Shown: in pieces, positions 3,107 to 40,659 of the stretch
How the letters are laid out: the number at the start of each line of letters is the position of its first letter
Numbering within the stretch: position 1 is the stretch's first letter
Source: Thioalkalivibrio sp.
GTDB lineage: Bacteria; Pseudomonadota; Gammaproteobacteria; Ectothiorhodospirales; Ectothiorhodospiraceae
DNA: 40,659 nt
Assembly: GCA_007116035.1 (NCBI GenBank)
Contig: SKJG01000036.1
Location: 1 to 40,659, forward strand
Reading direction: 5' to 3'
The notes under the pieces: generated by a model
Told to the model about the DNA's origin: nothing
The model's input: the letters and a program-made list of their open reading frames with translations, nothing else
Databases searched by the model: none
Translations under genes and position numbers: made by a program

Positions 3107-3468
3107 AGGTGGGAGCCGGCCTGTAAGCCGGGTTCTGTCGAGGACCGTCATTCCTCTGGGACGCCTGTCGCCAGGCGCCTCTAGCGGCCTACCCGGGTGC
3201 GATGCGGGCCGCATCATTGCACCCCTATTTGGCCTTGCTCCGGACGGGGTTTACCCTGCCGCGCACTGTTGCCAGGCGCGCGGTGCGCTCTTACCGCACC
3301 ATTTCACCCTTACCTGTGAACCGGACGAATCCGGCCCCATCGGCGGTATGTTTTCTGTGGCACTTTCCGTCGGCTCACGCCGCCCAGGCATTACCTGGCG
3401 TCCTGCCCTACGGAGCCCGGACTTTCCTCCACGCCTGCGCGCAGCGACGGTCCAGCCGACTCCCACCC
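3107..3468 (-). ncRNA. rnpB: RNase P RNA, bacterial type A
   Basis: Catalytic RNA of ribonuclease P, which matures tRNA 5' ends. Seen on the minus strand: helix P1 made by GTGGGAGTCGGC at the 5' end pairing with GCCGGCTCCCAC at the 3' end; the universal core GGAGGAAAGTCCGGGC (3415-3430, P4 5' side); the CCA-contacting region with GGTGCGGTAAGAGCGCACC; GCAAGGCCAAATAGGGG; and the conserved 3' block ACAGAACCCGGCTTA (3124-3138). These have the same order and wording as the E. coli type A RNA. Ends are placed from P1 pairing and the promoter, with an uncertainty of a few bases. Open reading frames across this span are chance. Confidence 0.97.
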
Positions 3469-28440: not shown

Positions 28441-29862
28441 ATGCTGAAGTCGTCCCTGAACCTACAGCTGGGTCAGAACCTGACCATGACCCCGCAGCTG
28501 CAACAGGCCATCCGGCTCCTGCAGCTGTCGACCCTTGAACTGCAGCTGGAGGTACAACAGGCGCTGGACAGCAACCCGATGCTGGAGCTGGCCGAGGAGA
28601 ACCCTTCCGACGAGGCGCCCAGCCCGGAGACCAAGAGCGACGCCGAGCCCGAAGCGCCGACGATCGAGGGCTCCACGGACGAAGACAGCTGGGAGGAGCT
28701 CTCCTACACCGGGGGAACCGGAGTACAGGGGGCCATGGATGATCGCGACCCCTTCGAAAACCAGGCCGGCAGCGAGGGCGGGCTGCACGAGCACCTGCTG
28801 TGGCAGTTGCACCTCAGCCCGCTGAACGAGCGGGACCAGCGCATCGGCGACGCGCTGATCGACAGTATCAACACCGATGGTTACCTCGAAACCGACCTGG
28901 AAGGCCTGCAGCAGACCCTGGGTGGCGAGGAGGCGGTCGGGATCGACGAGATCGAGGCGGTTTTGCACTGGATCCAGCAATGCGACCCGGTGGGTGTCGG
29001 GGCGCGCGATCTGCGCGAGTGCCTGCTGATCCAGCTGCGCGCCATGAGCGACGAGACCCCGGCACATGCGGCGGCGCTGCGGATCGTCGACACGGGTATG
29101 CCGAACCTCGCGCGGCACGACTTCCGCGCCCTGCAGCGGGACCTGGGGCTCGACGAGACAACGTTGGCCCGGGCGGTGGAACTCATCCGGACCCTGAATC
29201 CCCGCCCCGGCAGCCATATCAGCGACCAGCCCCTGGAATACGTGACCCCTGATGTCTACGTGCGCCGCGACAACGGTGGCTGGCGCGTGGACCTGAACCC
29301 GGACATCGCGCCGCGCATCCGCATCAACAGTCTTTACGCGGGCATGGTGCGCCGGGTCAGCGATGCCCGCGACAGCACCTTCATGCGCAACCAGTTGCAG
29401 GAGGCCCGCTGGTTTCTCAAGAGCCTGCACAGCCGCAACGACACCCTGCTGCGCGTCGCACGTGCGATCGTGGAACGCCAGTCCGCATTCCTGGAACAGG
29501 GCGACGTGGCGATGCAGCCACTCATCCTGCGCGACATTGCCGAGGCCCTGGGCATGCACGAGTCGACCATCTCCCGCGTGACCACCCAGAAATACATGCA
29601 TACCCCGCGTGGCGTGTTCGAATTCAAGTACTTCTTTTCCAGCCACGTGGGCACCAGCGACGGCGGCGAATGTTCCGCTACCGCGATCCGTGCGATGATC
29701 CGCCAACTGATCAGCGAGGAGCCGCCGAACCGACCCATGAGCGATTCCCGACTCGCCCAGGTCCTCTCGGACCGGGGTATCAACGTGGCCCGGCGCACCG
29801 TGGCCAAATACCGTGAGGCAATGAACCTGCCGCCTTCCAGTGAACGGCGACAGCTCCTTTAG
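28441..29862 (+). CDS. rpoN: RNA polymerase sigma-54 factor RpoN
   Basis: Alternative sigma factor for -24/-12 promoters that needs enhancer-binding ATPases. 473 aa. Seen: the glutamine-rich activator-interacting region I (LQLGQNLTMTPQLQQAIRLLQLS), an acidic region II (about 55-90), the core-binding domain, the helix-turn-helix with LGMHESTISRVTTQKY, and the RpoN box ARRTVAKYRE (450-459). It follows lptB by 112 bases without a clear terminator and precedes hpf, the standard order. Confidence 0.98.
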   Translation: MLKSSLNLQLGQNLTMTPQLQQAIRLLQLSTLELQLEVQQALDSNPMLELAEENPSDEAPSPETKSDAEPEAPTIEGSTDEDSWEELSYTGGTGVQGAMDDRDPFENQAGSEGGLHEHLLWQLHLSPLNERDQRIGDALIDSINTDGYLETDLEGLQQTLGGEEAVGIDEIEAVLHWIQQCDPVGVGARDLRECLLIQLRAMSDETPAHAAALRIVDTGMPNLARHDFRALQRDLGLDETTLARAVELIRTLNPRPGSHISDQPLEYVTPDVYVRRDNGGWRVDLNPDIAPRIRINSLYAGMVRRVSDARDSTFMRNQLQEARWFLKSLHSRNDTLLRVARAIVERQSAFLEQGDVAMQPLILRDIAEALGMHESTISRVTTQKYMHTPRGVFEFKYFFSSHVGTSDGGECSATAIRAMIRQLISEEPPNRPMSDSRLAQVLSDRGINVARRTVAKYREAMNLPPSSERRQLL

Positions 29863-38735: not shown

Positions 38736-39962
38736 TCAGACCTGCGACCGGTTGCGGCTCGCCGCGATGCGCAACCGCAGGGCGTTGAGTTTGATGAAGC
38801 CCGCCGCATCCTTCTGGTCGAAGGCACCGGCGTCCTCCTCGAAGGTGGCGATCGCATCGTCGAACAGGCTGTCGGATTCCGACCGCCGCCCGGCCACGAT
38901 GACATTCCCCTTGTACAGGCGCAGGCGCACCGAACCGTTGACCACCGACTGGGTCTGGTCGATCGCCGCCTGCAGCATGCGCCGCTCCGGGCTCCACCAG
39001 TAGCCGTTGTAGATCAGGCTGGCATAACGCGGCATCAGTTCGTCCTTCAGGTGGGCGACCTCGCGGTCCAGCGTCAGCGACTCCAGCGCCCGGCGCGCCC
39101 TCAGCAGAATCGTGCCGCCGGGGGTTTCGTAGCAGCCCCGCGACTTCATGCCGACATAGCGGTTCTCGACCAGGTCCAAGCGTCCGATGCCGTTGTCCCC
39201 GCCGATCCGGTTCAGCTCGGCCAGCAGTTGCCCCGGGCTCAGCGCCATGCCGTCCAGGCTGACCGGGTCGCCGCGCTCGAACCCGATCTCCACGACGGTT
39301 GACTCGTCCGGCGCCTGCTCGGGGGAGACCGTCCAGCGCCACATGTCCTCCTCGGCCTCGGTCCAGGGGTCTTCCAGCGGCCCCCCCTCGTACGAGATGT
39401 GCAGCAGGTTGGCGTCCATGGAATACGGCGACTTCTTCCCCTGCTTGGCGAAGTCCACCGGGATGCCATGCTGCTCGGCGTAGGCCATCAGGCGCTCGCG
39501 CGACGTCAGGTCCCACTCCCGCCAGGGCGCGATGACCTGGATTCCGGGCTTCAGCGCGTACGCGCCCAGCTCGAACCGGACCTGGTCGTTGCCCTTGCCG
39601 GTCGCCCCGTGCGCAATGGCGTCGGCTCCGGTCTCGTTCGCGATCTCCACCAGCCGACGCGCGATCAGCGGCCGCGCAATCGAGGTGCCGAGCAGATATT
39701 CGCCTTCGTACAGCGTGTTGGCGCGGAACATCGGGAACACGTAATCGCGCACGAACTCCTCGCGCAGGTCCTCGATGAAGATCTGCTTCACCCCCATCGC
39801 CTCGGCCTTCGCCCGGGCAGGCTCGACTTCCTCGCCCTGGCCCAGGTCGGCGGTGAAGGTGATCACCTCGCAGCCGTACTTGTCCTGCAGCCACTTCAGG
39901 ATCACGGATGTATCCAGCCCGCCGGAGTAGGCCAGCACGACGCGGGAAATCTTGGCACTCAT
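38736..39962 (-). CDS. argG: Argininosuccinate synthase ArgG
   Basis: Joins citrulline and aspartate using ATP in arginine synthesis. 408 aa, the ~400-aa class rather than the longer E. coli type. Seen: the PP-loop AYSGGLDTS (11-19), [41 protein letters not shown] and GRNRYVG-like [11 protein letters not shown]. Its ATG is preceded by AAAGGA. No second arginine gene is adjacent. Confidence 0.98.
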
Positions 39963-40003: not shown

Positions 40004-40046
40004 CTGTTCGTGGTGGCATTGAGCCCTGGGGCTTGTGGCGAACCAC

Positions 40047-40154
40047 GCCGCCGGGTGGTGTGCGTCGGCGGGACACGCTCAAGTCGTCCGTGAGCACTCG
40101 ACGGCGGCCGTCCATGGCCGCCGACGGTCCCGCCGACGCACACTACCCGGCGGC
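40047..40154. repeat. Structured element A: 28-bp stem enclosing a 52-nt two-hairpin core
   Basis: The left arm 40047-40074 pairs with 40127-40154 over 28 bp, with one G-T (G-U) position (40057/40144). The enclosed 52 nt (40075-40126) fold into two further hairpins: GCTCA/TGAGC (40077-40081 with 40091-40095, 9-nt loop) and CGGCGGCC/GGCCGCCG (40102-40109 with 40116-40123, 6-nt loop), giving a three-way junction. The core is the reverse complement, 46 of 52 bases, of the core in element B. Confidence 0.85.
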
Positions 40155-40261
40155 TCACTCCCTGCTTACCCATCTCTGAAACCACAAGACGCAGAACCGC
40201 GACAAATGTGCCAACGGCCCCGGCGGCAGCGCCCCTAGGCTGGCGCTCCAAAAAGCTGGAA

Positions 40262-40371
40262 GCCGGGACTGGGGTGGGCGTGGTCAGGGCCGTCGGCGGC
40301 CATGGATGGCCGCCGTCGAGCGCCCATGGATGGCTTGAGCGTGCCCTGACCACGTCCACCCCAGTCCCGGC
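40262..40371. repeat. Structured element B: 29-bp stem enclosing a 52-nt core, inverted relative to element A
   Basis: The left arm 40262-40290 pairs with 40343-40371 over 29 bp, with one G-T position (40278/40355). The 52-nt core (40291-40342) carries the hairpin CGGCGGCC/GGCCGCCG (40294-40301 with 40308-40315, loop ATGGAT) and the second helix region near 40322-40340, where one pair has become C-A on the plus strand but G-U on the minus strand. All six core differences from A are transitions. Confidence 0.85.
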
Positions 40372-40416
40372 CATGCAAGGCATCAAACCACGCACGGCGC
40401 CCACACAACCCCAAGG

Positions 40417-40659
40417 TCACCGCTTCCGAGGCGGCAGGATGTCTGTGATCGAACCGTGCGCGACCTCGGCGGCGAAGGCCACGGTCTCGGACAGCGTCGG
40501 GTGCGGGTGCACGGTCAGGCCGATGTCCTCCATGTCGGCGCCCATCTCCAGCGCGAGCATGGCCTCCGAGATCAGGTCGCCGGCCAGCGGCCCGACGATG
40601 CCCGCGCCGATCACCCGACCGTCGCCGTCGAACAGCAGCTTGGTCATGCCGTCGTCGGC
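40417..40659 (-). CDS. lpdA: Dihydrolipoamide dehydrogenase, C-terminal fragment (rest outside the window)
   Basis: FAD-dependent E3 subunit of pyruvate and 2-oxoglutarate dehydrogenase complexes. Only the last ~80 residues are in the window. Seen: TKLLFDGDGRVIGAGIVGPLAGDLI of the dimerisation domain, the catalytic His-Glu pair in HPHPTLSE, and the C-terminal GSITDILPP, resembling GSITDLPNP of E. coli Lpd. The 5' end of the gene and its neighbours cannot be seen. Confidence 0.93.
   Translation of the reverse strand, partial: ADDGMTKLLFDGDGRVIGAGIVGPLAGDLISEAMLALEMGADMEDIGLTVHPHPTLSETVAFAAEVAHGSITDILPPRKR

Follow-up and report, generated by a model that had tools for sequence, protein, structure and literature searches.

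The window, the 40,659-nt stretch of Thioalkalivibrio sp. contig SKJG01000036.1 that was analyzed here, carries near its end two structured elements, A and B, in the gap between argG and lpdA (Table 1). The coordinates originally predicted for both were borne out, with a closing stem of 28 bp in A and 29 bp in B, and the two elements are mutually inverted. We refer to the strand showing GGA in the loops as R and to its complement as F; R1 denotes a covariance model built from nine copies in this genome. R1 matched A at 40045-40160 on the minus strand (116.1 bits) and B at 40257-40372 on the plus strand (127.1 bits), both elements being among its training copies. The R strand folds as a three-way junction in which the closing stem carries two hairpins, the second of them with a bulge of 5 nt on its 3' side. 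Like the foot directly 5' of the stem of B, GGA/GAA-like feet 5' of the stem are frequent among other copies.

Table 1. Features of the argG-lpdA region (positions in the window).
Feature	Position	Strand	Remarks
argG	38736..39962	minus	Pfam argininosuccinate synthase; start codon 84 nt beyond A
Element A, type I	40047..40154	minus (R strand, GGA in loops)	R1 match and fold
A closing stem, 3' arm	40047..40074	minus	
A loop 2, ACGGAC	40086..40091	minus	
A loop 1, AUGGAC	40110..40115	minus	
A closing stem, 5' arm	40127..40154	minus	
A/B spacer (divergent pair)	40155..40261		no promoter identified
B purine-rich foot, GCTGGAA	40255..40261	plus	directly 5' of the stem
Element B, type I	40262..40371	plus (R strand)	R1 match and fold
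B closing stem, 5' arm	40262..40290	plus	
B loop 1, AUGGAU	40302..40307	plus	
B loop 2, AUGGAU	40326..40331	plus	
B closing stem, 3' arm	40343..40371	plus	
lpdA, 3' part	40417..40659	minus	name from the original prediction and a reading of the translation; stop 45 nt from B

As first described, the 52-nt cores of A and B are identical at 46 positions and differ by transitions only at the other six, and both arms have changed at stem positions 2, 5, 7, 9, and 14. Three of these transitions affect the variable N of the A-N-GGA-N loops, another two make up a compensated pair (U-A versus C-G, columns 62/71 of alignment A3), and the last turns a C-G into a U.G wobble (columns 59/79 of A3); the A and GGA of the loops are untouched by all six. 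Each stem does have a single non-Watson-Crick position, but with the core as reference the two G-T positions are on different strands: the odd pair of B is G.T on R, and that of A is G.T on the complement, i.e., A.C on R, so that this pair of elements alone does not name the functional strand. Both strands of A and B fold far more stably than dinucleotide shuffles, with z scores of -10.5 to -12.1 under RNA parameters and -10.2 to -13.0 under DNA parameters, and none of 200 shuffles was as stable in any strand and parameter case.

Further copies, whose absence the original prediction had named as evidence against it, were found in the genome itself and in relatives by DNA and covariance-model searches. 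A DNA search of the genome gave eight copies, including A and B, and a script added the ninth. R1 then returned 25 matches there, but seven of them duplicated a site already matched on the other strand, which gives 18 sites. The copies on C95 and C29, which both sit at contig ends and have identical sequence, may be a single one, and a script scan found one extra copy on C131; we therefore state the number as about 18. Type I copies, including A and B, have loops that are mostly AUGGAU, and type II copies have loops that are mostly AGGGAU, with a hairpin 2 that is usually UACAGGGAUGUA. R1 matches were obtained in 14 of the 30 genus genomes searched (E value 0.01), 18 of 47 in the order (1e-7), 47 of 369 genomes sampled from the class, representing 43 of 271 genera (1e-6), and 10 of 398 in a phylum sample of which 30 genomes were listed (1e-9), all ten of the same class; copy numbers in the larger samples are lower bounds, since nine to ten candidates per genome were scored. 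A scan of named genomes yielded at least 120 stretches; among the 80 matches listed are Marinobacter, Methylotuvimicrobium buryatense, Methylomonas, Ectothiorhodospira, Nitrococcus, Shewanella marisflavi, Thioalkalivibrio, and others. A phage origin was considered and dropped, no viral contig having matched the class pattern, which fits type II-like cores.

The fold is preserved across these copies although their stem sequences are not. In gapless fixed-register alignments of nonredundant copies, 32 of type I and 34 of type II (leaving out L101 and L107 of type I, L108, L131, and L137 of type II, and three rows labelled Ib), the 28-bp closing stem and both hairpins pair in 97.1% and 97.4% of cells, respectively, so that copies with unpaired stems, which the original prediction had named as evidence against it, are not what the alignments contain. 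Double changes occur at 31 of 42 pairs in type I and 30 of 42 in type II, and no covariation measure was reached by any of 500 shuffles in either type; when the partner is slid by one to three columns, pairing falls to 34-51%. Mean arm identity between copies is just 0.55 and 0.48, yet among 74 nonredundant copies 65 have a closing stem between 26 and 34 bp long. Among the aligned type I copies, seven of 32 break pair 34/51 of hairpin 1 and eight break pair 35/50; some of these have a tandem G.A pair. In three cases (the second L008 copy, L079, and L110) the palindrome extends far on, to the contig ends; these are probably assembly fold-backs seeded by elements.

Half-changed pairs bear on the question of which strand matters. 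With no strand preference, they should appear on R equally as G.U and A.C. In the genus, the inner 24 pairs of 70 nonredundant stems gave 53 G.U against 14 A.C on R (p 2e-6), 28 copies having more G.U, 7 more A.C, and 35 neither; 70 of 74 stems reached the required minimum of 20 Watson-Crick pairs in 28 positions, and L051, too near a contig end, was dropped. An independent named set, scored strand-symmetrically, gave 67 G.U against 15 A.C in 73 stems (p 5e-9), after removal of 19 of 94 loop pairs that lacked a stem score of 12 and of two duplicate sequences. Owing to this excess, the folded R strand seems to be under selection, as judged from sequence comparison. The proposal that a folded single strand is selected is thus supported by further copies, strong covariation, and the excess of G.U over A.C on one strand. 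The excess fits RNA and single-stranded DNA alike, as the latter also tolerates G.T, and a mutation bias linked to transcription could contribute to it.

Both hairpin loops have the form A-N-GGA-N and are closed by C-G. Alignments A3 and A4 show no variation in the A and GGA of either loop, with N free, and the loop-closing pair is C-G in all cells but one (U.G, in A3). The genus scan itself required A.GGA, which makes the loop invariance there partly a matter of construction. A palindrome scan of the class loci that applied no loop filter gave 80 palindromes, 73 of them distinct, and 75 of the 80 (68 of the 73) carry two A.GGA on the same strand; the loci had come from R1, whose training copies have A.GGA loops. 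Loop starts are 24 nt apart in 60 of 106 copies, 23 nt in 42, and 27 nt in 4. According to two studies, the SELEX consensus for CsrA is RUACARGGAUGU, with GGA within hairpin loops (PMC4347634), and GGA hairpins occur in pairs for the CsrA homodimer (PMC4383904). The element loops look like this CsrA/RsmA recognition pattern, having ANGGA in hairpin loops and in pairs, as in RNAs that bind these proteins. A csrA gene is present in this genome, and its product is near-identical to CsrA proteins of solved structure, with 52 residues aligned end to end. In the class sample, csrA was found in 43 of 47 genomes with elements and in 270 of 322 others, and one 98% complete genome (G241) has elements and no csrA match; with so weak a co-occurrence, a dependence of the elements on csrA was rejected.

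The original prediction recognized no family, but the elements belong with TwoAYGGAY (RF01731, clan CL00106). A and B themselves did not match RF01731 at E values up to 10; a sister copy in this genome, at C155:7310-7433, scores 47.3 bits against a gathering threshold of 43 and is homologous to both through R1 and DNA similarity. Copies in two further genomes (G018 and G025) also pass the threshold, making three of 30 genus genomes altogether, and two of 18 class loci do so (L192 and L187). We class A and B as relatives of the family, though their own score test failed. Shared with TwoAYGGAY are the two AYGGAY-loop hairpins (all four loops of A and B fit AYGGAY), an external stem poorly conserved in sequence, and, in some copies, a tandem-GA hairpin 1. 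The differences are that A, B, and most class copies tested score below threshold, that loops here are often AGGGAU, as in most of type II, which does not fit AYGGAY, that hairpin 2 has a 5-nt bulge, and that the elements are multi-copy, dispersed, and sometimes borne by miniature inverted-repeat transposable elements (MITEs), for which no description was found.

The family and its proposed binding of CsrA are already known. It was listed in 2010 (PMC2864571); a motif study proposed it as CsrA-binding and mentions the poorly conserved external stem and a tandem G.A variant (PMC4333381); and in Rfam 15 RF01731 appears with two covarying pairs added (PMC11701678). Among the matches listed for literature searches on TwoAYGGAY, on CsrA with dispersed or palindromic repeats, and on palindromic repeats of Thioalkalivibrio, the present dispersed family was not described. 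As far as these searches show, the class-wide multi-copy dispersal, the AGGGAU-loop subtype, the flipping of cores between orthologous flanks, and carriage by a MITE in a single gammaproteobacterium, with 9-bp target duplications in most units, are new. Three loci (L150, L152, and L153) in genomes lacking R1 matches (G007, G029, and G012) matched RF01731 below threshold and solely over its central part with the two hairpins (model positions 49-107); they are possibly stem-less relatives. At a relaxed threshold, the window also gave Rfam matches that lay far below gathering, were mostly to hairpin miRNAs, and were taken as chance.

Taken with the anatomy, these results make it probable that A and B are dispersed, structure-conserved RNAs of the TwoAYGGAY kind whose R loops serve to dock CsrA. 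In such a module, a closing stem of about 28 bp and free sequence would present two short A-N-GGA-N hairpins 23-24 nt apart, and one CsrA/RsmA homodimer would bind both loops of one R RNA. R would be transcribed by read-through from a neighboring gene or from a promoter that escaped detection, and the GC-rich stem might isolate the module from its context and protect it. Many copies together could titrate CsrA in the manner of a distributed sponge, and an individual copy close to a start codon, as A is to that of argG, may act locally. Several observations count against docking: sigma-70-like sites were not enriched upstream of R in three sets (p 0.79, 0.47, and 0.37, using approximate weight tables), gene orientation is mixed, csrA co-occurs only weakly with the elements, and A has its A.C on R.

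CsrA titration is normally attributed to a small number of dedicated sponge RNAs. Should our reading be true, tens of dispersed, partly transposon-borne double docking sites would exist, through which Csr networks could be rewired by mobile DNA; RF01731, an Rfam family without known function, would gain a far larger membership and a functional strand, and its poorly conserved external stem would be explained.

The surroundings of the copies do not bear out the suggested leader or attenuator role as a general one, because orientation toward the neighboring genes varies from copy to copy and is in places reversed between orthologous flanks; A alone of the pair lies in sense direction, before argG. 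Genes were called with a home-made codon model. In the named set, 19 copies were R-sense, 14 R-antisense, 9 convergent, and 6 divergent, with 14 at an edge and 11 overlapping a called ORF, against background gaps that were 107 codirectional, 30 divergent, and 26 convergent. With such mixed and flipped orientation, an antisense position relative to the local transcript is possible for many copies. Genus copies flanked by two called genes were never between divergent genes (0 of 53 intergenic copies), and 13 further copies overlap a called ORF, two of these with divergent outer neighbors. A fixed rule of gene arrangement was rejected, since the named set had 6 of 48 copies between divergent genes, near the 30 divergent gaps among 163 in the background. 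Of 11 close pairs in the genus, nine (A/B included) are divergent with R outward and two are tandem; some of the pairs are possibly orthologous. The core is flipped between orthologous flanks in, e.g., L073 versus L072 and L075. Two flip-like pairs (L118/L124 and L111/L129) have very different stems or outer flanks and may be independent insertions.

At the argG-lpdA locus, where lpdA is conserved in relatives, counterparts of B were found in six genomes (G004, G025, G017, G024, G026, and G002) and of A in three of these (G017, G024, and G026). A is missing from G004 and G025, with about 14 nt of its outer arm left, and the 354-nt gap of G003 has neither element. This pattern of presence and loss shows that copies there are inherited vertically and sometimes lost. 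In G025 (L369), a REP-like GTAGGAGGCGAGCCCTCTCGCCGA stands in place of the missing A, and similar stretches, GGAGGCGAGCCCTCTCGGCGA, flank other copies (L074 and L114). In G001, G005-G016, and G028, which have no R1 match anywhere in the genome, 1.0-1.35 kb separates argG from lpdA (L376-L387, L389, and L390), the extra sequence likely being one gene. The A/B spacer contains TTGGCACATTTGTCGC on the minus strand upstream of argG, which we take to resemble a sigma-54 promoter; rpoN lies within the same window, at 28441-29862.

The original idea of a mobile palindrome holds outside the genus, where the element sits inside a MITE; at A and B neither a terminal-inverted-repeat (TIR) frame, nor a target duplication, nor a shared flank frame was seen. 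In G250 the element lies within units of 233-234 bp that have 18-bp TIRs, and 12 unique two-ended units show seven perfect 9-bp target duplications, two with 8 of 9 positions, and three without a clear one. The repeat pattern, at one mismatch or fewer, occurs 44 times in G250 and not at all in a backwards control. Relative to the frame, three of the 12 units carry the core reversed; L234/L235 versus L236-L238 of G250 show an inverted core within MITE frames that otherwise match. G081 has six units of 206-207 bp with no clear duplication and with repeats that differ from those of G250, whose repeat pattern is absent there. The units of G250 are thus MITE-like in their TIRs and target duplications, with the element inside; the element differs from a MITE in being cargo, in that the TIRs of the two genomes are unlike, and in lacking a frame at A/B. 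A MITE frame around genus copies was sought by flank comparison and was not seen, the best 70 of 182 flank matches looking like orthologous flanks or shared pair spacers. The data support movement by a TIR transposon with the element as cargo, outside the genus of the window. A further, less probable reading is that of a mobile, orientation-flipping CsrA-docking module, found across the class, that was spread by MITEs, lost its frame, and descended vertically, acting as a distributed sponge or wiring its neighbors into Csr control.

An unlikely alternative to CsrA docking is a selfish element of single-stranded DNA, in which R would fold as DNA, e.g., on the lagging strand, and be recognized by a transposase or other single-strand-specific enzyme, the conservation of loops and stem then reflecting that enzyme. 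DNA folding is as distinctive as RNA folding, a G.T excess would arise in DNA as well, and free gene orientation, flipped cores, and dispersal all suit such an element. Y1 transposases, however, were found in 26 of 30 genus genomes, with or without elements, the element pattern was absent from all 20 Y1 loci examined, the clear movement was by a TIR transposon with mostly 9-bp duplications, and the loops fit the rule of an RNA-binding protein.

It is very improbable that arm-to-arm correction, the alternative put forward originally, was alone, by template switching or recombination, in keeping functionless palindromes perfect. Core flips between identical or orthologous frames need exchange between arms, and stems that are very different between copies pair nearly perfectly, and correction may contribute; yet it predicts equal G.U and A.C, against the 53:14 and 67:15 counted above, and leaves the conserved core, the covarying short hairpins, and the loop pattern unexplained. 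Least probable is a 3'-end element of neighboring mRNAs, a terminator or exonuclease block like REPs downstream of genes: a stop codon lies within 65 nt in 39 of the 53 genus intergenic copies (the genus background being too small for comparison) and none of these is between divergent genes, but the divergent neighbors of two ORF-overlapping copies and of the six in the named set do not fit, no T-run follows the stems inspected, and a plain hairpin requires neither ANGGAN loops nor one-strand asymmetry.

Like CsrB, CsrC, and RsmX/Y/Z, the candidate CsrA-docking elements have GGA in hairpin loops whose arrangement suits CsrA dimers; they differ in having two sites each, not many, in their numerous dispersed copies, in the long closing stem, and in lacking, by the sigma-70 test, the own promoter of a CsrB/RsmZ-type sRNA. 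The CsrA-related sRNAs of Alcanivorax, Alteromonas, and Pseudoalteromonas are described as being of the many-GGA, CsrB kind (PMC9788540, PMC5864184, and PMC9927453). REPs, as described in PMC3733652, are GTAG- or CGTC-tagged dispersed extragenic palindromes with hairpins of 20-40 bp, and they resemble the elements in being dispersed, often downstream of genes, and often in inverted pairs; the elements differ in their length of about 110 nt, the three-way junction, and the lack of a GTAG foot. A link to CGTC-tagged REPs was examined, as CGTC opens many of the cores; the AT pair does not follow it there, and the stem length and tail described for those REPs in the same paper do not fit either. 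An association with RAYT/Y1 proteins, as for GTAG REPs, was likewise rejected, no RAYT being flanked by an element among the Y1 loci examined. Two other structured RNAs were noted in passing: a match to the 5' ureB sRNA (RF02514) at 2139-2425 of L042, minus strand (110.4 bits), and, in the window itself, RNase P RNA class A (RF00010) at 3108-3463 on the minus strand (325 bits).
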